From the NCBI GenBank assembly GCA_016789685.1, contig JAEUQQ010000555.1, forward strand, positions 1 to 37,695: a DNA stretch of 37,695 nucleotides, read 5' to 3'. Shown piece after piece: positions 9,703 to 25,141 of the stretch (its first letter is position 1; each line of letters begins with the position of its first letter). The DNA is from Acidobacteriota bacterium. GTDB taxonomy: Bacteria > Acidobacteriota > Vicinamibacteria > Vicinamibacterales > JAFNAJ01. The notes beneath the pieces are model-generated. The model saw nothing but the letters and a program-made list of their open reading frames with translations. It was not told the origin of the DNA and searched no databases. The position numbers were made by a program, and so were the translations under genes.

Positions 9703-10598
9703 GCTCGCCGGTCGCGATTGGCGTCGATGTCGGAGGGACGTACACGAAGCTGGTGGCCGTGACCGCCGATGGCATCGTGCGTTCGCGTGCGCGTGTCGAG
9801 ACCGATGGTGGGTCGGCCGAGCGACTGCTGGAGTCGGTTCGCAGCGAGATCACAGCGGCCGAGCAGCGTGTCGGCCAGGCCGCGTGCGTCGGCGTCGCGT
9901 GCCCGGGCCTGGTGCGGCGCGGCGCCGTCGCGGTGCACTGGATGAAGGGCCGGCTCGAGGTGCTCGAAGGGCTCGAGTGGCAGGCGGCGTTGGGTCGCAG
10001 CGCGCCCGTTCCGGTGATCAACGACGCGCACGCCGCCCTGCTCGGCGAGATGTGGCTGGGCGCGGCCCGCGGCTGCCTCGACGTCGTTCTGCTCACGCTG
10101 GGCACCGGCGTCGGCGGCGCCATCGTGTCAGACGGCCGCATCCTCGCGGGCGCCACCGGCCGTGCCGGTCATCTCGGGCACATCGCGCTGCAGGTGCCGG
10201 GTCCACGCGACATCGTCAACACGCCCGGCAGCCTCGAAGACGCCATCGGCAATCACAACATCCTCGCCCGGTCGAATGGCCTTTTCGCCTCGACCGAGGC
10301 GCTGCTGGCGGCGCACGCGCAGGGCGACGCGCACGCCAGCCAGGTGTGGCAGACGAGCGTCCGCTGCCTCGCCGCCGGTCTCGCATCGATCATCAACGCC
10401 GTCGACCCGGCGCGGATCGTGCTCGGGGGTGGCATCGCGGCGCGTGCCGGTCGCGCGCTCTTCGACCTGCTCGACGACTACATGCACGAATACGAGTGGC
10501 GACCCACCCTCGACCGTGTCGAGATCGTGCCCGCGTCGCTCGGCGACGAAGCCGGCGCGATCGGCGCGGCGTGGCACGCCATGGAGCGGACCGCATGA
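9699..10598 (+). CDS. ROK-family sugar kinase
   Basis: A 299-residue protein. The ATPase phosphate loop is GVDVGGTYTK near the N-terminus, GVACPGLV follows, the catalytic aspartate is in VINDAHAALLGE, and LTLGTGVGGAIV is the second phosphate loop. The late motif IVLGGGIAARAG is the adenosine segment. Unusually, the zinc-binding CxCGxxGC motif found in most ROK kinases is missing: the corresponding stretch is GHLGHIALQVPGPRD followed by NTPGSLEDAIG. The start at 9699 overlaps the SDR stop and the stop overlaps the SIS start, both as ATGA. The likely role is phosphorylation of the sugar formed by the upstream enzymes. A sensor function is less likely because there is no DNA-binding domain. Confidence 0.88.
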   Translation: MSSPVAIGVDVGGTYTKLVAVTADGIVRSRARVETDGGSAERLLESVRSEITAAEQRVGQAACVGVACPGLVRRGAVAVHWMKGRLEVLEGLEWQAALGRSAPVPVINDAHAALLGEMWLGAARGCLDVVLLTLGTGVGGAIVSDGRILAGATGRAGHLGHIALQVPGPRDIVNTPGSLEDAIGNHNILARSNGLFASTEALLAAHAQGDAHASQVWQTSVRCLAAGLASIINAVDPARIVLGGGIAARAGRALFDLLDDYMHEYEWRPTLDRVEIVPASLGDEAGAIGAAWHAMERTA

Positions 10599-11392
10599 CC
10601 CCAACCGAGCAGTACCTGGCGGCCTCGGCGCACCTGATCGAGATCGTGCGCGCGCAGGAGCCCGCCATCTGCCAGGCGGCATCCTGGTTTGCCGAGACCA
10701 TCCGGGCAGGCCGGATGGTCCACGTCTTCGCCTCGGGCCACAGCCGGATCATGGTCGAGGAGATGTGGCCGCGCTACGGGTCGTTCCCCGGCTTCAACCC
10801 GATCGTCGAGCTCTCGATGACCTTCCACAACCTGGTGGTCGGTGCCAACGGCCAGCGGCAGGCGATGTTCATCGAGAACGTCCCGGGCCTCGCGGATCGC
10901 ATCCTGCGGAACTTCGCGCTGTCGACCGACGACACGGCGCTCGTGATCAGCTCGAGCGGTTGCAGCGTCGTGCCGGTGGAGATGGCCGAGGCGTTTCAGC
11001 GTGCCGGCATTCGAGTCGTCGCCATCATCAGTGCGCGTCACAGCGAGAAGAGCACCCCGAAACACCGCGACGGGAAGCGGCTGCAGGACTTCGCCGATCT
11101 CGTGCTCGACACGGGTGCGCCGTCTGGCGATGCCATGGTCGCCATCCCCGGCCTCGACACGCCGGTGGCGCCCGGCTCCACGGTGGGTGGCTGCCTGCTG
11201 ATCAACTGCATCAAGGCCGAAGTGGCCAAGCGGCTGACCGATGCGGGTGTCGCCCTCAAGGTCCTGTCGGGCGGGGCGATCGTCGGCGACGCCCGCGCCG
11301 CCGAACTCTTCGAGGCCGCCTACGACGAGCACAGCCGACGGCTGGCCGCGCTGTACGCAGGCCTGGGCGCGCCAGGCGATTCCAGCCGCTGA
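10595..11392 (+). CDS. SIS-domain phosphosugar isomerase (UPF0309-like)
   Basis: A 265-residue SIS (sugar isomerase) protein. Phosphosugar-binding segments visible are VHVFASGHSRIMVEEMWPR, LVISSSGCSVVPVEMAEAF, and the family-specific run from IISARHSEKS to DTGAPSGDA. A C-terminal helical part (INCIKAEVAKRL, AAYDEHSRRLAAL) completes it. Relatives are annotated as UPF0309 SIS proteins, close to GmhA- and MurQ-type folds. ATGA overlap with the ROK kinase indicates coupled expression, which fits a kinase-then-isomerase sequence of steps. An etherase or deaminase activity on an amino sugar phosphate cannot be excluded. It is the last gene of the rightward operon; the next gene is convergent. Confidence 0.87.
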   Translation: MTPTEQYLAASAHLIEIVRAQEPAICQAASWFAETIRAGRMVHVFASGHSRIMVEEMWPRYGSFPGFNPIVELSMTFHNLVVGANGQRQAMFIENVPGLADRILRNFALSTDDTALVISSSGCSVVPVEMAEAFQRAGIRVVAIISARHSEKSTPKHRDGKRLQDFADLVLDTGAPSGDAMVAIPGLDTPVAPGSTVGGCLLINCIKAEVAKRLTDAGVALKVLSGGAIVGDARAAELFEAAYDEHSRRLAALYAGLGAPGDSSR

Positions 11393-13306: not shown

Positions 13307-14278
13307 TCAGAGCCGCGCGAAGCGTGCGGTCTCCTCGATCAACGCACTGCGGATGCCGACCTCGGTCATCGAGTGGCCGGCATCGCCAACGACCACGAGC
13401 TTCGCCTCTGGCCAGGCGCGGTGCAGATCCCAGGCCGAGCGCATCGGGCAGACCACGTCGTAGCGGCCCTGCACGATCACGCCGGGGATGTGGCGGATCT
13501 TCTTCGCGCCGCGCAGGAGCTGGTCGTCGCGATCGAAGAATCCCCTGTTGACGAAGTAGTGCGCCTCGATGCGCGCGAAGGCATCGGCGAACTTGCCGCC
13601 GCCGAATCGCTTCACGACCTTGGGATCGACGAAGAGCTTGCTCGTCGTGCCCTCCCACACCGACCAGGCGCGCGCCGCGCGCAGCCGCACGCGGCGGTCC
13701 TTGCTCGTCAGGCGCTTGTAGTACGCCTGCATCATGTCGCCGCGTTCACGCGGCGGGATCGGCGCCAGGTACTCCTCCCACGCATCGGGGAAGATGTGGC
13801 TCGCGCCCTCCTGGTAGAACCACAACAGCTCGCTGCGCCGCAGCATGAAGATCCCGCGCAGCACGAGCGCCTTGCACTTCGCGGGGTGTGTCTGCGCATA
13901 CGCGAGCGCCAGCGTGCTGCCCCAGCTGCCGCCGAACACGACCCAGCGATCGATGCCCAGGTGCTCGCGCAGCGTCTCGATGTCGGCCACGAGATCCCAC
14001 GTCGTGTTCTCGCGCAGTTCCGAGAAGGGCGTGCTCTTGCCGCACCCACGCTGGTCGTGCAGCACGATGCGCCAGACCTTCGGATCGAAATACCGGCGGT
14101 ACACCGGATCGATGCCGCCACCCGGCCCGCCGTGCAGGAAGACGATGGGCTTGCCGCGGGGGTTGCCGCACTCCTCGTAGTAGATGGTGTGCAGCGCCGA
14201 CACTGGCAGCATGCCCGTGTTGTACGGCGTCGTTTCGGGGAAGAGTTCGCGCAGTCGCGGGGTCGGTCGCGTCGTCAT
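13307..14278 (-). CDS. pip: Proline iminopeptidase (prolyl aminopeptidase)
   Basis: A 323-residue alpha/beta hydrolase of peptidase family S33 that removes N-terminal proline from peptides. Diagnostic segments: LRELFPETTPYNTGMLPVS, IYYEECGNPRGKPIVFLHGG (oxyanion HGGPGGG), LHDQRGCGKSTP, ENTTWDLVADIETLREHL, the nucleophile elbow FGGSWGSTLALAY, VQGRYDVVCP with the acid, and GDAGHS with the histidine. The length is normal. Start: ATG 14278 is chosen because TACCGT lies 7 nt upstream and overlaps the alternative GTG at 14287. Cytoplasmic, single gene. Confidence 0.95.
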   Translation of the reverse strand: MTTRPTPRLRELFPETTPYNTGMLPVSALHTIYYEECGNPRGKPIVFLHGGPGGGIDPVYRRYFDPKVWRIVLHDQRGCGKSTPFSELRENTTWDLVADIETLREHLGIDRWVVFGGSWGSTLALAYAQTHPAKCKALVLRGIFMLRRSELLWFYQEGASHIFPDAWEEYLAPIPPRERGDMMQAYYKRLTSKDRRVRLRAARAWSVWEGTTSKLFVDPKVVKRFGGGKFADAFARIEAHYFVNRGFFDRDDQLLRGAKKIRHIPGVIVQGRYDVVCPMRSAWDLHRAWPEAKLVVVGDAGHSMTEVGIRSALIEETARFARL

Positions 14279-14285
14279 GTCGTTC

Positions 14286-14291
14286 ACGGTA
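14286..14291 (-). promoter_or_regulatory. Candidate -10 (TACCGT) of pip
   Basis: TACCGT on the minus strand ends 7 nt before the ATG at 14278, and no Shine-Dalgarno sequence is present. This arrangement suggests a leaderless message and decides against the upstream GTG start. Confidence 0.35.
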
Positions 14292-14396: not shown

Positions 14397-16343
14397 TCAG
14401 CGGCGGTCGTCGCGTTGCGCCGCGGCCAGCCTGTCGATCTCGGCGAGCGTCAGCCGCACGCTGGCGATGTACGGCGGGGCGCCGGCGGTCCACGATCCGT
14501 AGGTGGTGGTGACCAACGTGCCGTCGGGCAGGACCTCGAGGCCGGGATAGCAGCAGTCCCACGCGGTCGTGTTGTCCATGAGGCGCACACGGTACTGACC
14601 GGGACGCTGCTGCGCAATGTCGTCCCACGTCCCGACCCACGCGAGCCAGTCGCCCGACGTGGGTGACTCCGGCGCCGTATCGCGAAACGTCACGAAGATC
14701 CGGCCATCAGGCGCGTACGCTCCGACGTGTCGGTCACCAGTCAGCGTCCACGGCAACTCGCGGGGCTCGCTCCACGTCCGTCCCTCGTCGTCAGAGAACA
14801 CCACGTGCGAGTTGCGACGACGCGAGTTTTCGCGCAACAGCGCCGCCAGGCGGCGGCCGTCGGGCGAGCGGATCACGCCAGGCTCGCACAGGTGCACGTC
14901 GCTCGATCGGAAGATCGCCGTGGGTGCCGACCACGTGCGCCCGCCATCCTCCGACCTGGTGCCGTAGAGCGTGAAGACCGCCGGCGTCGCCTTCCTGCCA
15001 TCCGACGTGATGAATCGCCCGTCGTCGTGGAACATCGCGAGGTAGTGACCGGCGCCGGTGTTCAGCCGCACGACCGAGCTCATCGCGACGATGCCGCCGA
15101 ACGTGCCGATGGGCGCCAGTTCACTCCACGTCGTGCCATCGTCCTCCGACAGCGACATCCGGATCGGGTACAGGCCTGAGAACAGCACGAGCCGCTTCGT
15201 CCCACTCGCGTCGACCACGCGATGAATGGTCGGGGTTTCGCGCGAGGTGGCCCACGAAGCGGGGACGCTGGCGTGCGCCGACCACGTCAGGCCGCCATCG
15301 GTGCTGCGCTTGAGGAGGATGCCCCCTTCGCCATGGCCCTTGGGGTAGACGGCGACGATGGTGCGTCCGTCTTCGAGCAGCACCGTCGTGGGGTGCCCGA
15401 GGTACTGCGCGGGGTCACGATCGACGACAACCTGCCTGGCGACGTCGCCCGCGAGGTCGATGAGGGCTCGCTTCCGGATGGCCGCGATCGTGGCGGCCAA
15501 CTCGGCGTCACGTCCTGCGGCGACATCGGCAACGGTACGGGCGACGGGCAGGTCGGGCGCCAATCCGGCGTCGGGACCTGCGGTCGTGGCCGCCGCCTGC
15601 AGGCTCGCGACGCGTTGGTCGTAGGTGCTGGCCTTCACTTCGATGTCGATGGCGCTCGCGCTTCCGGGGCCGACGACGCGAAGTGCGAAACGGTCAGAGG
15701 CCGGCGGGAAGAACAGCGGGAAGAAGATATCGAAGGCCTCGAGCCGGCTGGTGCCCTGCACCTCGAGGTAGGCGACCCGCTTGGCGTCGTTGTTGCCGTC
15801 GGCACGCGCGACCGTCATCAGCCGTGCGAGGACGTCGCTGGCGCGCACGCCGTTGATCGCGACGATCTCGGTGCCTGCCACGAGGCGCGTGTCATCGGCG
15901 ACGCTGCGCGTCACGATCATGCGACCGTCGATCCAGCGGAAGTAGAACGGCACGCGCGGGCCGCGGAACAGTGCCTCGGCCACGGCCCTGGGCTGGTTGA
16001 AAAAGTTCGCGTAGGTGTGGCCGCACTTCACCTTGGCGGCGAAGGTCGACAACGCCAGGTAGGCGTCGGCGAGCGTGCGGTCGCGCGAGAACTCGCGTTC
16101 CAGTGCCGCGAAGTGCGCGTCCATCTGCGCGGGCGTGTTGTAGCGATGCAGCCCCGGGTGGAGCTGCTCGTAGGCCCGTCGCAGGATGGCGACGTCGGTC
16201 AGCAGATCGCCAGACTGCAGAATCGTGTCGGCGCGCAGTTGTACCGGGGCGGCAGGCGCAATGGCCTGGGCGCGACTGTCACCCGGGAGGACGACGGACA
16301 GCAGCGCCGAAATCGCGGCGGACACAAGCACCGTGGTGTGCAT
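14397..16343 (-). CDS. Secreted fusion: S41-peptidase N-terminal region plus sialidase (BNR) domain
   Basis: A 648-residue exported protein with a signal peptide (residues 1-25, ending SRA). Residues about 35-240 resemble the N-terminal part of S41 (tail-specific/tricorn) peptidases: LRRAYEQLHPGLHRYNTPAQ, KVKCGHTYANFFNQP, and a PDZ-like LVAGTEIVAINGVRASDVL. The S41 catalytic core with its serine is absent. Residues about 285-648 are a six-bladed sialidase: LGHPTTVLLEDGRTIVAVYP, four Asp boxes (STDGGLTW 347, SEDDGTTW 399, SEDGGRTW 464, SDDEGRTW 517), RSPDGRRLAALLREN, and TGDRHVGAYAPDGRIFVTFR with likely catalytic-site arginines. The two parts are in one frame with an alanine-rich linker. A predicted exo-sialidase or related glycosidase; the role of the first part is unclear. 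Confidence 0.82.
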   Translation of the reverse strand: MHTTVLVSAAISALLSVVLPGDSRAQAIAPAAPVQLRADTILQSGDLLTDVAILRRAYEQLHPGLHRYNTPAQMDAHFAALEREFSRDRTLADAYLALSTFAAKVKCGHTYANFFNQPRAVAEALFRGPRVPFYFRWIDGRMIVTRSVADDTRLVAGTEIVAINGVRASDVLARLMTVARADGNNDAKRVAYLEVQGTSRLEAFDIFFPLFFPPASDRFALRVVGPGSASAIDIEVKASTYDQRVASLQAAATTAGPDAGLAPDLPVARTVADVAAGRDAELAATIAAIRKRALIDLAGDVARQVVVDRDPAQYLGHPTTVLLEDGRTIVAVYPKGHGEGGILLKRSTDGGLTWSAHASVPASWATSRETPTIHRVVDASGTKRLVLFSGLYPIRMSLSEDDGTTWSELAPIGTFGGIVAMSSVVRLNTGAGHYLAMFHDDGRFITSDGRKATPAVFTLYGTRSEDGGRTWSAPTAIFRSSDVHLCEPGVIRSPDGRRLAALLRENSRRRNSHVVFSDDEGRTWSEPRELPWTLTGDRHVGAYAPDGRIFVTFRDTAPESPTSGDWLAWVGTWDDIAQQRPGQYRVRLMDNTTAWDCCYPGLEVLPDGTLVTTTYGSWTAGAPPYIASVRLTLAEIDRLAAAQRDDRR

Positions 16344-16470: not shown

Positions 16471-17190
16471 TCAGTCGCGTCCCTTTCGCCACTCCATGAC
16501 GACGAACCACGGGACACGTCGGTACTGGGCGGCCCTGTCGGCAGGGGCACCCGCCACCGGTTCGGGTTCGTCGAACCACGTCAGCGTCAGGCCCGCGGCG
16601 AGCAGGGCCTGCATGTAGCGGCGCATTGGCCGGTGGTGGTTCACGATCCGGATGCCGCGCCACTCGACCCACATCGCGCGTTCCTGCAGGTATCGATCGA
16701 TCGGGTAGTGTCGGCGATGGCCGAGCAGGCTCCGGCACCACCCGTCATCGGCGCTGGCAGAACTGAAGCCCGAGAGATTGGCGATGAGCAGCGTGCCGCC
16801 AGGTGCCAGCACGCGCGCCATCTCGCGAATCGCCGCGTCACTGTCGGCGATGTCGACCAGCGTGAGGTAGCTCACCACGAGATCGAAGCATTCGTCACCA
16901 AACGGCAGGTGCTCTCCAACGCCACGGAGGTACTGTCCGCCAGGCCCGCGCGCACGCGCGGCGCCGACCAGCGCGGGCGTGGGCTCGATGCCGGTCGCTG
17001 CGACGCCCGCCTCGGAGAGTTGGCGGCAGAAACGTCCCTCACCACAGCCGACATCGAGCGCGCGTGACGGCGATGCCGCCAGGGCGCGCGGAAGCATGAC
17101 CGGGTCGAGCACGTAGCGGCGGCCGAAGTCGCCGTGGTCGCCCTGCGAGGCGATCCAGGCATCGGCCGATTGATTCCACCCGTTGTCCAT
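16471..17190 (-). CDS. Class I SAM-dependent methyltransferase
   Basis: A 239-residue methyltransferase. SAM motif I is ALDVGCGEGRFC; ATGIEPTPALVGAAR is motif II; GVGEHLPFGDECFDLVVSYL covers the acidic loop and motif III; VLAPGGTLLIANLSG is the usual post-I strand and turn. The C-terminal part (residues about 150-239) includes VNHHRPMRRYMQALLAAGL, typical of the Methyltransf_11/25 type acting on small molecules. Start 17190 (MDNGWNQSADAW) matches where such proteins normally begin; the open frame extends 22 codons upstream without support. It is cytoplasmic. The substrate cannot be predicted from the sequence. Confidence 0.87.
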   Translation of the reverse strand: MDNGWNQSADAWIASQGDHGDFGRRYVLDPVMLPRALAASPSRALDVGCGEGRFCRQLSEAGVAATGIEPTPALVGAARARGPGGQYLRGVGEHLPFGDECFDLVVSYLTLVDIADSDAAIREMARVLAPGGTLLIANLSGFSSASADDGWCRSLLGHRRHYPIDRYLQERAMWVEWRGIRIVNHHRPMRRYMQALLAAGLTLTWFDEPEPVAGAPADRAAQYRRVPWFVVMEWRKGRD

Positions 17191-17281
17191 GAGTGCCCGT
17201 TGACGTGCGTGGCCTGCCGCCGGTTCCGCCAGCGTCAGCCCGCGCAACGGGGCCACGCGACGACCACGACCACGGCCCGCC

Positions 17282-19389: not shown

Positions 19390-21849
19390 TCAGCGCCTGA
19401 CCGTCCACTCCTGGACGCCCGACGAGAACTCCGGCTGCGACGTCACCTCGAGCCGGAGGCCGCTGGTCGTCACCGGCGCGAAGGCGACCGCGTTGTAGGC
19501 GTCCTTCGCCGTGCCGTACGGCGTCTTCGCCTCGACGGGCGTCCACGTGTCGCCGGCCTTGTACAGCACGCGCCACGACGCGGGAACCCGGACCTGCCCG
19601 CTGCCGGTGTCGTCGAACCAGTAAACCTCGATGCCAGACACGCGCGTCGGTGTCGCGAATGCGTACTCGAGCCACTCTGACGTTCCACGCCTGGGCCACC
19701 AGTCGAAGTACGACGTCGGGTCGGCGGAGTTCTCCGGGGTCTCGCCGTCGTTGACGGCGCGCGGGTTCCTTCGGCCAGACGAGGTCACGGTGCTGGCCGA
19801 CGCGATGCTGGGAAACGGCGTGGGGCGCGCCGCCGATTCGGTGCGGGCCAGCCACACGGCCATCTGCCCCCGCCCGCGGTTCGCCCACGCATAGTAGGGA
19901 ATGGCGGTCAGCGTCTGGTCGTGCCTCGTGATGGTCCCGTTGGCGTCGTAGGCAAGCCCGACGGCCCTGGCCGTGATCACCTGCACGCCGTTGAGGAGGT
20001 TGGGACGGAACTCGGTCGATAGCGACGAGGTGTCGGGCAACACGAGGTTGCGGACGCGTCCGTTGTCGTTGTCCACCCACTCGGCCGTGTAGACGATGGG
20101 CCCACGCTGCAAGGCGACGCGGTTGCGGTTGGCCTCGACCTTGTCGTGGGCGACGACGCGTCGCACTGGCATCGGCAGCACGAGGTCGATCGTGTCGCCG
20201 GTCTTCCACTCGCGCGACACGGTGGCGTACCCCTTGTCGAGGGTGATGGGCACGGGAGCACCGTTGACGGCCAGCGTCACTTCGGCCGTCGATCGATCCT
20301 GGAAGCGGTAGAGATCAGAGGGCACGGGCTCGTTGCGCGCCCAACCCGGGATGCGCAAGCGGATCTCGAAGTGCCCCGGCGTCGTCGGCGCGAGTGTGAA
20401 CTTCACGGCACCGTCCCACGGGTAGCGGGTCGCCTGCGTGATCTCGAGCCGGCGTCCGCCGCCGACGTCGACGTTGGCGCGGCCCGCGGCGTAGAGGTTC
20501 ACGTAGAGCGTGTCGCCGCGGCGTGCGTAGACGTAGCCCGGCACCGAGGCAAGGAAGCGCGTCATGTTGCCGGGGCAGCAGGCAACGCCGAACCACGGGC
20601 TCCGCTCGTGCTGGCCGTTCGACTCGAGCGGGTTGGGGTAGAAGAACGACATGCCGTCGAGCGACACGCCCGAGATGAGGCCGTTGTAGAGCGTGCGCTC
20701 CATGACGTCGATGTACTTCGCGTCGGCGTGCAGCAGGAACAGGCGGTGGTTCCAGTAGTCGGCGCCGATCGACGCGCAGGTCTCGTTGTAGGCGGTCATG
20801 TTCGGCAGCTCGTAGTCGTCGCCGAAGGCCTCGCCTCGACCCGAGGATCCGATGCCGCCGGTGATGTAGAACTTCTTCTGGATGACACTGTTCCAGATCG
20901 CGTCGCCCGCCTTGAGGTAGCCGGGATCCCCGGTGAGGGCCGCGACGTCGGCCATGCCGGAGTACATGTAGGCGGCGCGCACGGCGTGTCCGACGGGTTC
21001 GGTCTGATCGACCACTGGCGCGTGCGCCTGGTTGTACGTGAGGCCACGCGGGTTGGTCTTCTCGCCGGGGCGGGGGCCGCGCTCGTCGAGCATGAACCTG
21101 GCGAGCGCGAGGTAGCGCTCGTCGCCCGTGACGCGATAGAGCTTTGCCAGGCCCATCTCGGTGATCTGGTGGCCCGGCCAGATCGACTGCTTGCCCGGAC
21201 CAAAGGTCGCCACGAGCAGGTTGGCCGCCTTGATCGCCACGTCGAGCAGCGTGCGCTTGCCCGTGGCCTGGTGGTGTGCGCAGGCCGCCTCGAAGAGGTG
21301 GCCGAGGTTGTAAAGTTCGTGGCTGTCGTCTCGCTCGAGCTCCCAGCGTGCCTTGCCGGCCCAGGGGTGGGGGTTCTTCGCGTCGATCGTTCGCGTCGTG
21401 TACAGGTAACCATCGGGCTCCTGCGCGGCGGCGATCTTCGCGATGAGGTCGTCGACGTACGCCTCGAGTTTCGGGTCGGGGTGCACGGCGAGCGCGTAGG
21501 CGGCGCCCTCGATCACCTTGTAGGGATCGGTGTCGTCGAAGGGGTAGCCCGGCGGCTTCGTGTTCGAGAGCGTCTCGCCGCGCAACGCGGCCGCGGCGCG
21601 GACGAAGTTGTCGACGCGGCCCGAGAGTTCGCATTGCTGGAACGCGAAGGGGATGCTGACCAGCCGGTTGGTCTCGATCTTCGGCGCCCAGAACTGGTCG
21701 TCGAGGTGGACGGCCGTGAAGGGCACCGGCTGCACGGGGTAGTCGCGGCCAGCGCCCCGGGGCTGTTGCGGCGCCGCGCGGCCGCCGGTAGCGACGAGGA
21801 CCACGACGAGGAGCAGGAGGCCGAGCGCGCGGGCGGTCGTAGGCGGCAT
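19390..21849 (-). CDS. Secreted GH127 beta-L-arabinofuranosidase-like glycosidase with C-terminal discoidin-like module
   Basis: An 819-residue exported enzyme with a signal peptide (residues 1-25). The GH127 (DUF1680) domain follows: VHLDDQFWAPKIETNRLVSI, IEGAAYAL, EPDGYLYTT, ELYNLGHLFEAA. Catalytic residues align with HypBA1: E340 (GEAF) fits E322, E356 and C358 (YNETCAS) fit E338 and C340, and C424-C425 (GVACCPGN) fit C417-C418, the zinc site with the nucleophilic cysteine. Residues about 680-819 look like an F5/8-type carbohydrate-binding beta sandwich. Start 21849 has GAGG upstream. A divergent second DUF1680 gene shares its promoter region. It predicts release of L-arabinofuranose from plant or microbial glycans. 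Confidence 0.92.
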   Translation of the reverse strand: MPPTTARALGLLLLVVVLVATGGRAAPQQPRGAGRDYPVQPVPFTAVHLDDQFWAPKIETNRLVSIPFAFQQCELSGRVDNFVRAAAALRGETLSNTKPPGYPFDDTDPYKVIEGAAYALAVHPDPKLEAYVDDLIAKIAAAQEPDGYLYTTRTIDAKNPHPWAGKARWELERDDSHELYNLGHLFEAACAHHQATGKRTLLDVAIKAANLLVATFGPGKQSIWPGHQITEMGLAKLYRVTGDERYLALARFMLDERGPRPGEKTNPRGLTYNQAHAPVVDQTEPVGHAVRAAYMYSGMADVAALTGDPGYLKAGDAIWNSVIQKKFYITGGIGSSGRGEAFGDDYELPNMTAYNETCASIGADYWNHRLFLLHADAKYIDVMERTLYNGLISGVSLDGMSFFYPNPLESNGQHERSPWFGVACCPGNMTRFLASVPGYVYARRGDTLYVNLYAAGRANVDVGGGRRLEITQATRYPWDGAVKFTLAPTTPGHFEIRLRIPGWARNEPVPSDLYRFQDRSTAEVTLAVNGAPVPITLDKGYATVSREWKTGDTIDLVLPMPVRRVVAHDKVEANRNRVALQRGPIVYTAEWVDNDNGRVRNLVLPDTSSLSTEFRPNLLNGVQVITARAVGLAYDANGTITRHDQTLTAIPYYAWANRGRGQMAVWLARTESAARPTPFPSIASASTVTSSGRRNPRAVNDGETPENSADPTSYFDWWPRRGTSEWLEYAFATPTRVSGIEVYWFDDTGSGQVRVPASWRVLYKAGDTWTPVEAKTPYGTAKDAYNAVAFAPVTTSGLRLEVTSQPEFSSGVQEWTVRR

Positions 21850-21944
21850 GAGATCCTCAGCGGTGGGCTCGGTCGAGCCGGCGGTCGCCGGCTGCGATTC
21901 GCCGGCCCTGCGGCCGGGCATTGCCCGGTGCGCAGGTGGGAAGT

Positions 21945-21968
21945 AGTGTACCGGGAACGTTGACGTTC
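21945..21968. promoter_or_regulatory. Candidate promoter and operator between the two divergent glycosidase genes
   Basis: GAACGT-TG-ACGTTC (21955-21968) is a perfect inverted repeat with 6-bp arms, resembling LacI-family operators. A -10-like TACACT lies next to it on the minus strand (21945-21950), about 95 nt before the ATG at 21849. No regulator gene is adjacent. The binding protein is unknown. Confidence 0.45.
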
Positions 21969-22066
21969 GCGTCGCCTTCCCGACGTGGATGTACCGGCGA
22001 CGAAGCCGCTGACGTCGCGCGGGCGCACGCTCGCGCCTGGTCCGACCGCCTCGTGGAGTGGCACAC

Positions 22067-25000
22067 ATGACCCGCGTCGTTCTTCCCCTGCTGCTGGCCG
22101 CTTCGACCCTTGTCGCCGCCGTGGCCCCGGCCTCCCGTGAGGCCACATCCGCCGCGCAGGCGACGCAGGCCACCACGTCGGGCGGCGACCAGTTCCTCGA
22201 CGGCATCGGCGAAACCGCGCTGATCGCCCGCTACACGTTCAACGGCACCGCCGAAGACTCGTCGCGAAACCAGTTGCACGGCACGGTACGCGGCGACGGC
22301 GGCGTCTTCGTCCAGGATGCCAGCGGCGGCCAGGTGCTGCTGCTCACCGGCGACGGCAGCCACGTCACGTTGCCACCCGATGCCCTCGCTGGCGAAGACG
22401 CCATCACCTTCGCCGGCTGGCTGTACCTCCCGACCGGCGCATCGGGACCAATCTTCGACTTCGGCCAGGGCCCCGCGACGAGGCTGCATGCGCTCGTGGA
22501 TGCGCATGGATTCCGCGCGGTGGCGGTGGTGGATGGCCAGATCCGCGGCGAGACGCCGGGTGCGCCAATCGTCGTGAACCAGTGGCGGCACGTCGTCGTC
22601 GTGCTCGATCCCGCCAGCCGGACGCTCACCACCTATCTCGACGGCGCGCGCGCAGGCCAGGCCACCAGCGTCGATGTCACGCCGGCGCACCTCGTGCCCC
22701 AGGGCTCGCCGACGACCCGGCTGCTGCTCGGACGCACGCAGGACGACACGGCGCCATCGCTGCACGGGCGCCTGCGCGACGTGCGCCTCTACCGCATCGC
22801 ACTCGGCGACGCGCCGGTGGCCACCATCCACCGCAACGCCCTGCCCACGAGCCCCTCGACCCGGGGTCGCGACGCGGCCCCGCCCGACATCTCGACCGCG
22901 GGCATCCCGATCGAGTCGCCGTTTGCGGCGCGGATCGAGAGCGTGGCCGCAGTCGCGGTCGACACGGTCGTCGGCATGCTGCCCAGGCTTCCGGCGACGG
23001 TCGCGGCGACGTTCGTCGATGGCACGCGGGGCGACGTCCGCGTCATCTGGCCGTCGCCGACCGACAACGCCGCGGTGCGGTCGCCCGGCACCTTCACCGT
23101 CACCGGACGCGTACCCGGCACGCGTGTCGAGCCGATGGCCACGGTGATCGTCAAGGTGCCCGTGGGCACGACCACCGCACCCCAGCGCCTCGTCGAGGCG
23201 TTTCCGCTCGACAGAGTCGTGCTCGACCGCGACGCGCAGGGGCGCGAGACGCCGTTCATCAGGAGCCGCGACAAGTTCCTGCGCGGCCTCGCGGCCACGA
23301 ATCCCGACAGCTTTCTCTACAACTTCAGGGATGCGTTCGGCCAGCCGCAGCCGCCTGGCGCCACGGCGCTCGAGGGATGGGACAACCAGACGACGAGGCT
23401 GCGGGGGCATGCGAGCGGCCACTACCTCACGGCCATTGCGCAGGCGTACGCGAGCACCGGCTACGATCCGGCGCTCCAGGCGCACTTCCGCCAGAAGATG
23501 CACTACCTCGTCGACACCCTGCACGACATGGCGCAGAAGTCTGGCCGTCCCGCGCGCCCCGGCGGGCCGTTCGTCGCCGATCCGGCGGCGGTGCCCATGG
23601 GGCCAGGGCGCACGAGCTACGACTCGAACCTTCGCGCCGGCGCCATCCGTACCGACTACTGGAACTGGGGCACGGGCTTCATCAGTGCGTATCCGCCCGA
23701 CCAGTTCATCATGCTCGAACGCGGGGCCACCTACGGCACGCAAGACAGCCAGATCTGGGCGCCGTACTACACGCTGCACAAGATCCTGGCGGGCTTGCTC
23801 GACGTGTACGAAGTCGCCGGCAACCAGAAGGCGCTCGAGATCGCGCGCGGCATGGGCGCGTGGGTGCACGCGCGGTTGCGGGCGCTGCCGCCCGAGACAC
23901 GGACGGCGATGTGGAGCCGTTACATCGCAGGCGAGTACGGCGGGATGAACGAGGCGATGGCGCGCCTCTTCAGGCTCACCGGCGAGCGCCGGTTCCTCGA
24001 TACGGCGCAGTTGTTCGACAACACCGTCTTCTTCTTCGGCAACGCGAGCCGCGATCACGGCCTGGCCAGGGGGGTCGACACCGTGCGCGGGCGGCACGCC
24101 AACCAGCACATACCGCAGATCACCGGCGCCCTCGAGACGTTCCGCACGACGAAGGAGCTGCCGTACTACCTGATCGCCTCGAATTTCTGGGAGATCGTCA
24201 ACAGCGGCTACACCTACAGCATCGGCGGCGTGGCGGGGGCGCGCAACCCGAACAACGCGGAGTGCTTCCCCGCCGAGCCGCACGCGTTGTGGGAGCACGG
24301 GCTCGCGCCGGGCGGCCAGAACGAGACGTGCGCGACCTACAACCTGCTCAAGCTCGATCGTCAGCTGTTCATGTACGACCAGGCGGCGAAGTACATCGAC
24401 CACTACGAGCGCGCCATCTACAACCACATCCTCGCGTCGGTGGCCGAGCACGACGCGGGCAACACCTATCACGTGCCGCTGAACCCGGGGGCCCAGAAGC
24501 GCTTCGGCAACGCGAACATGAACGGCTTCACCTGCTGCAACGGCACGGCGCTCGAGAGCCACACCAAGCTGCAGGACTCGATCTACTTCCACGGTGCCGA
24601 TCACGCGGCGTTGTACGTGAACCTGTTCATCCCCTCGACGGTGACCTGGGCCGAACGCAAGGTGGTCGTGCAGCAGGTCACCGACTTCCCCTACGCCGAC
24701 AGCACGCGGCTCGTCGTCAAGGGCGCGGGACGTTTCGATATCAAGGTGCGGGTACCAGACTGGGCGACCCGTGGTGTCTCGGTGAAGATCAACGGTCGCG
24801 ACGAGGCGGTGTCAGCGACGCCGGGCAGCTACCTGACCCTGGCGCGCACGTGGCGCGCGGGCGACGCGATCGAGCTGCGCATGCCGTTCACCTTCAGGCT
24901 CGACTACCTCGTGGATCAGCCCAACGTCGCGAGCCTCTTCTACGGCCCGATCCTGCTGGCCGCCGAGGAACCAGCCGCGCGTACCGACTGGCGCAAGGTC

Positions 25001-25141
25001 GAACTCGACGCGCGCGACATCGGTCGCTCGATCGCCGGTGATCCCGCGACGCTGCGCTTTTCGATCGCCGGCGTCGCGTTCAGGCCGTTCTACGAGACCT
25101 ACGGCCGTCATTCGGTCTACCTGCACGTCGTCCTCAGGTAG
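22067..25141 (+). CDS. Secreted multidomain GH127/GH146-clan glycosidase with LamG-like and Ig-like modules
   Basis: A 1024-residue exported protein. After a signal peptide, residues about 45-245 form a LamG/concanavalin-like module (ALIARYTFNGTAEDSSRN, TFAGWLYLP, VNQWRHVVVVLD, LHGRLRDVRLYRIAL). Residues about 280-365 look like a bacterial Ig-like domain (PATVAATFVDGTRGDVRVIW, GTFTVTGRVPGT). From about 370 on is the DUF1680 glycosidase: FLYNFRDAFG, LRGHASGHYLTAIAQAY, IWAPYYTLHKILAGLLDVYE, E753-T-C755 in NETCATYN and C823-C824 in FTCCNGTALESH, matching the zinc-cysteine site. The LRGHASGHYL segment resembles GH146 more than GH127. Start ATG 22067 has GGAG 8 nt upstream. A predicted L-arabinofuranosidase partner of the divergent enzyme. 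Confidence 0.88.
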   Translation: MTRVVLPLLLAASTLVAAVAPASREATSAAQATQATTSGGDQFLDGIGETALIARYTFNGTAEDSSRNQLHGTVRGDGGVFVQDASGGQVLLLTGDGSHVTLPPDALAGEDAITFAGWLYLPTGASGPIFDFGQGPATRLHALVDAHGFRAVAVVDGQIRGETPGAPIVVNQWRHVVVVLDPASRTLTTYLDGARAGQATSVDVTPAHLVPQGSPTTRLLLGRTQDDTAPSLHGRLRDVRLYRIALGDAPVATIHRNALPTSPSTRGRDAAPPDISTAGIPIESPFAARIESVAAVAVDTVVGMLPRLPATVAATFVDGTRGDVRVIWPSPTDNAAVRSPGTFTVTGRVPGTRVEPMATVIVKVPVGTTTAPQRLVEAFPLDRVVLDRDAQGRETPFIRSRDKFLRGLAATNPDSFLYNFRDAFGQPQPPGATALEGWDNQTTRLRGHASGHYLTAIAQAYASTGYDPALQAHFRQKMHYLVDTLHDMAQKSGRPARPGGPFVADPAAVPMGPGRTSYDSNLRAGAIRTDYWNWGTGFISAYPPDQFIMLERGATYGTQDSQIWAPYYTLHKILAGLLDVYEVAGNQKALEIARGMGAWVHARLRALPPETRTAMWSRYIAGEYGGMNEAMARLFRLTGERRFLDTAQLFDNTVFFFGNASRDHGLARGVDTVRGRHANQHIPQITGALETFRTTKELPYYLIASNFWEIVNSGYTYSIGGVAGARNPNNAECFPAEPHALWEHGLAPGGQNETCATYNLLKLDRQLFMYDQAAKYIDHYERAIYNHILASVAEHDAGNTYHVPLNPGAQKRFGNANMNGFTCCNGTALESHTKLQDSIYFHGADHAALYVNLFIPSTVTWAERKVVVQQVTDFPYADSTRLVVKGAGRFDIKVRVPDWATRGVSVKINGRDEAVSATPGSYLTLARTWRAGDAIELRMPFTFRLDYLVDQPNVASLFYGPILLAAEEPAARTDWRKVELDARDIGRSIAGDPATLRFSIAGVAFRPFYETYGRHSVYLHVVLR

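Follow-up and report, generated by a model that had tools for sequence, protein, structure and literature searches.

The S41 peptidase family (PF03572) includes the C-terminal processing proteases CtpB and D1 protease. The family, with the solved relatives 4ghn, 3k50 and 4l8k, has in common with the protein described here an N-terminal helical and PDZ-like part and a C-terminal tail, but the catalytic core with its serine nucleophile is lacking from this protein. Non-proteolytic use of S41-related sequence has a precedent in the modules of IRBP/RBP3, although in these the CtpA/crotonase-type core persists and provides a ligand site (PMC2000878), whereas here the core has been cut out. In microbial PDZ proteins, the PDZ domain is mostly combined with protease domains, and no sialidase partner is named (PMC6411480). 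The GH33 sialidases, with which the second half of the protein has to be compared, rely on a trio of arginines, an aspartate acid/base and a glutamate-tyrosine pair (PMC4747158). P. gingivalis PG_0352 (8gn6/8feb), NedA (1eus) and IT-sialidase (4x47) have the six-bladed Asp-box propeller in common with our protein; they carry the first arginine of the triad in an F/Y-R-I-P motif together with the acid/base aspartate, whereas our protein has Gly-His-Pro and a shorter loop devoid of aspartate. Its nearest counterparts are BNR_2 proteins for which we coin the name GHP-type and which have the LGHP, KGHG, HDDGR, CEPG and GDRH motifs in common with it; these are found alone or fused to sulfatase, GDSL, DUF3472, BD-FAE, ThuA or sialidase domains, whereas in our case the partner is S41. 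A limited literature search retrieved no published account of an S41-propeller fusion.

The window, by which we mean the whole analyzed stretch of 37,695 nucleotides from an Acidobacteriota bacterium, contains at positions 14397-16343 of the minus strand a 648-codon reading frame without internal stops. In the second half of the encoded protein, Pfam recognizes BNR_2 (E=2.5e-19) together with BNR repeats; residues 133-204 match PDZ_4 below the threshold (E=0.13), and Peptidase_S41 (PF03572) gives no match. The parts, all on the minus strand, follow one another in the order signal peptide, S41 helical/PDZ-like part, S41 C-terminal tail and four-Asp-box propeller. Residues 1-25 (16269-16343) resemble a signal peptide, as judged by eye from the translation rather than with a predictor, and represent the only secretion signal recognizable in the fusion. 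Identity to intact S41 peptidases delimits the helical and PDZ-like part to residues 26-255 (15579-16268), within which lies the KCGHTYANFFNQ motif, with GHTY at 16011-16022. Residues 256-292 (15468-15578; GPDAGLAPDLPVARTVADVAAGRDAELAATIAAIRKR) correspond to the C terminus of an intact S41 peptidase, with 62-64% identity, and residues 293-648 (14400-15467) form a GHP-type, sialidase-like six-bladed β-propeller (BNR_2), delimited from Pfam matches, homologues and the structure model.

The S41 origin of the first half is evident from a whole-genome protein search, in which the top match of the N-terminal part is an intact S41 peptidase from another family of the same order (G038, L013/P0002). 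Residues 22-255 of the window protein are 60% identical to this peptidase (E=5.6e-85), a similarity that, at the level of sequence, is not attributable to chance, and residues 256-292 match the same 574-aa frame with 62% identity; PF03572 (residues 324-491, E=2.8e-18) falls in the segment of the peptidase that separates these two matches. When this intact S41 protein was used as the query, its residues 2-215 matched window positions 15582-16223 with 62% identity and its residues 433-466 matched 15480-15578 with 64% identity. Since the two S41 flanks are only 3 nt apart in the window, about 217 codons, comprising the whole catalytic core and, according to the alignment with intact S41 proteins, its NSSAT motif, have been lost in frame at a joint (J1) located at 15576-15581. 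Among the hallmarks of the S41 family, the homologous N-terminal helical/PDZ-like part (62% identity to an intact member) and the C-terminal tail that follows the core (residues 256-292) are present, and the catalytic domain with the serine nucleophile is missing by both Pfam and alignment. The core and the NSSAT motif are retained in all close intact relatives (L013, L111, L112, L113/L114, L156 and L157); identity of the N-terminal part to L111, L112 and L113 is 52-57%. A search of the window's genome with the S41 protein did not locate the excised core elsewhere: the sole other match, C270, is 28% identical, and the remaining S41 domains of this genome belong to different proteins.

The second joint (J2, 15465-15470) lies at the RKR/ALIDLAGD boundary, where the S41 tail passes into the propeller. 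Nearly all propeller homologues, most of which are stand-alone proteins, begin to match at residues 292-295, that is, just past RKR at residue 292, which implies that a tail without its stop codon was joined to a mature propeller without its signal peptide; indeed, both the S41 stop and a signal peptide of the propeller's own are absent at J2. We consider it moderately probable that the gene arose as a lineage-specific fusion through two losses that both preserved the frame. In this scenario, the serine catalytic core of an S41 peptidase gene would have been lost at J1, with retention of the signal peptide, the helical/PDZ-like part and the C-terminal tail, and the 3' end of this gene would have been linked at J2 to a gene for a secreted GHP-type propeller of sialidase fold, of which the mature part was included. 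The original prediction, which had proposed an S41 N-terminal region devoid of a protease core and fused in frame to a sialidase, is borne out by these data, and its suggestion of a fusion by deletion is supported, because the segment missing from an S41 gene whose two flanks persist is exactly the core. Its boundaries need revision: the S41 part, which had been placed at residues 35-240 or so, extends as a remnant to about residue 292 with the tail (256-292) included, and the proposed junction at 15490-15620 covers J1 (~15579) and stops short of J2 (~15467).

Such an arrangement might also be produced if the contig brought together parts of an S41 gene and of a propeller gene that lie apart in the organism, and the draft status of the assembly (777 contigs, 4.3% contamination), along with the uniqueness of the fusion in all searches, is compatible with this explanation. 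An artefact, however, would have to account for two joints that are both in frame and free of stops, in a region that is single-copy in the genome; among direct repeats of at least 12 nt within the gene, none is located at the joints; and the gene is uniform in GC content and in third-position GC, without a break at J1 or J2, the weakest stretch being the Ala-rich segment around J1 (residues 241-280). We regard misassembly as quite improbable, with the proviso that, in a single draft genome of this kind, the fusion site may be misassembled or may represent a variant within the population.

The propeller belongs to a family that is represented in Planctomycetota, Verrucomicrobiota, Acidobacteriota and other groups (80 loci, 55-70% identity). 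Structure prediction, which had been proposed as a check, succeeded for this half, with pLDDT mostly above 90, and failed for the N-terminal part, where the models (from the single sequence or from a propeller-only alignment) were of low confidence, with a mean pLDDT of 43 in one case, and were not used. In a Foldseek search, the propeller model retrieved sialidases, with PG_0352 of P. gingivalis as the first hit, and the best target-normalized score belonged to the uncharacterized Dfer_1899 (5hx0). Together with the four Asp boxes (residues 347-354, 399-406, 464-471 and 517-524), the model and these hits place the domain within the six-bladed fold of the GH33 family. The catalytic positions were compared through a collinear alignment with the canonical sialidase domains of L028, L074, L016, L029 and L062, which come from the same set of loci; in a profile-profile alignment, the propeller was shifted by one blade against canonical sialidases, and this alignment was dropped for residue mapping. 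In the collinear alignment, the F/Y-R-I-P motif with the first triad arginine is replaced by LGHP (15390-15401, minus strand), which 82 of 82 relatives share, with G316-H317-P318 invariant in alignment A1, and the loop of the acid/base aspartate is about 7 residues shorter and contains no Asp. Candidates for the catalytic Glu, Arg, Arg and Tyr are, by their aligned positions, Glu487, Arg504, Arg587 and Tyr599, respectively. Glu487 and Tyr599 are invariant and aligned as the Glu-Tyr pair, although the blade register is ambiguous and other alignments give other registers; the Glu and the second Arg are less certain because the propeller repeats permit a shift by one blade. With two canonical GH33 catalytic positions replaced, sialidase activity is no more than a candidate function. 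The original description as a four-Asp-box sialidase is accurate with respect to the fold and the number of boxes, but two hallmark catalytic positions of GH33 are absent; judging from the model and the alignments, the name sialidase is right for the fold and putative for the chemistry.

More generally, a large BNR_2 sialidase-fold family (A1; L019-L098) has an invariant Gly-His-Pro in place of the F/Y-R-I-P arginine, together with invariant histidines 317 and 337, and is devoid of the acid/base Asp loop. The GHP-type proteins are probably a distinct glycan-active family that has been filed as sialidase. Family genes, of Planctomycetota/Verrucomicrobiota type, are also present in the records L062 and L065, which are titled as Klebsiella pneumoniae and Akkermansia muciniphila MAGs, titles that may be wrong.

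No second fusion emerged from searches with the N-terminal part (162 genomes of the order; 378 Verrucomicrobiota-type genomes sampled around G544), with the whole protein (193 genomes of the class; 392 Planctomycetota-type genomes sampled around G543) or with the S41 protein (396 genomes of the phylum). The roughly 1,300 genomes are samples from partly overlapping groups, in which architectures were assessed from match range and frame length rather than by a full census. One weak match in G033 (residues 214-305, L015) was set aside as it looks like a chance frame, and the long upstream frames of L004, L073, L055 and L052 were rejected as S41 fusions on the basis of Pfam. The presumed parent arrangement, with an intact S41 gene beside a propeller gene, was not encountered either: a relative of the fused S41 peptidase is absent from the flanks fetched at the 80 propeller loci, and no propeller adjoins the S41 genes at the S41 loci (L111-L114, L156 and L157 among them). 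These results lend no support to the notion of a true new architecture, if by that a widespread one is meant; as the fusion has been seen once, it need not be a new kind of enzyme and may have arisen by a recent genetic accident. The original prediction was to be abandoned if the fusion was lacking from other genomes and codon or GC breaks at the junction pointed to a recent deletion; the former is what we observed in the genomes sampled, and breaks in GC or codon position are absent from the joints.

Has the S41 remnant begun to decay? The window copy and L013 share 62% identity at residues 39-245, and the distance to outgroup S41 proteins is no larger for the window copy than for L013. By relative-rate counts with seven outgroups, the window copy has not accumulated an excess of changes (p 0.11-0.70); with L111 as the outgroup, for example, 17 changes fall on the window copy vs 21 on L013. 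Positions that are invariant across four close relatives are kept in 63 of 70 cases, and those invariant across eight relatives in 30 of 32; each intact S41 member, when excluded from the set and scored in its place, retains 32 of 33-34. The remnant is thus, as far as substitutions tell, not decaying. In the absence of acceleration and with the invariants kept, it is either recent or maintained, and the data do not separate these two possibilities. It is very unlikely, in our opinion, that the gene is a recent deletion pseudogene of an S41 gene whose propeller is expressed accidentally or never. The loss of the catalytic core and the single occurrence are what such a pseudogene would be expected to show, but the entire 648-codon frame is open, the secretion signal is retained, and all family-invariant motifs are kept over the whole propeller (alignment A1, 38 sequences, 55-68% identity).

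The kept invariants, the in-frame nature of both joints and the habitual fusion of the propeller family to other glycan enzymes would also fit a selected two-module protein, in which the core-less S41 scaffold, with its PDZ-like part and tail, docks the sialidase-like domain on glycoprotein termini or on a partner. The original suggestion that the peptidase part might bind the substrate protein is a hypothesis of this kind. Against this stand the single occurrence in about 1,300 genomes from four sampled groups and the N-terminal models, whose confidence is too low to lend structural support; moreover, a lack of decay is expected after a recent event as well. We consider selection of this kind unlikely, and it is likewise doubtful that a core-less protease acts, once secreted, as a docking scaffold for an enzyme of sialidase fold whose active site is non-canonical (Gly-His-Pro). 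Under the deletion-fusion scenario that we favor, the protein would be exported via the S41 signal peptide and would have no protease activity, the propeller would act on sugar chains outside the cytoplasm, and the S41 remnant would serve as a leader or scaffold, possibly with some of the old contacts of the PDZ region preserved. Most likely, the fusion still makes a secreted protein directed at sugar chains. It appears to capture domain shuffling almost to the base pair: a protease has had its catalytic core cut out, with both ends left in place, and what remains of it is now a scaffold attached to a sugar enzyme.

The gene is flanked downstream by a gene for an α/β hydrolase (13307-14287, minus strand) and upstream by one for a methyltransferase (16471-17256); no promoter-like site and no informative terminator were detected, and the window contains no tRNA. 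Farther to the right are two GH127 arabinofuranosidase genes on opposite strands, one at 19390-22206 and the other at 22058-25141 (plus strand), the latter with Laminin_G_3 and Big_4 domains ahead of the main catalytic stretch. To the left lie a gene for a SIS-domain protein (9884-11392) and, still farther, those for Gfo/Idh/MocA dehydrogenases, a xylose-isomerase-like protein and a GntR-type regulator. This sugar-catabolism neighborhood fits a glycan enzyme and does not name its substrate.

Fusion as such is in character for the GHP-type domain, which is often joined to other enzymes. A sulfatase (SGSH-like) shares one frame with it in L004 (1-2586), which belongs to the same taxonomic order as the genome of the window; DUF3472 is fused to it in at least four loci (L021, L024, L042 and L086), a GDSL esterase in L028, L052, L065 and L073, a BD-FAE esterase in L060 and L081, ThuA in L078, and a glucuronyl-esterase-like domain in L019. 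S41 was seen as a partner only in the genome of the window (G000) in this sample. The fusion also draws attention to a large, fusion-prone sialidase-fold family whose name has no backing from the catalytic residues and whose activity could be assayed. In two loci, a canonical sialidase is followed by a GHP-type propeller in one frame (L028, 3690-6776, with the GDSL esterase in addition, and L074, 228-2723), which suggests that the two domains act there on the same or neighboring substrates.
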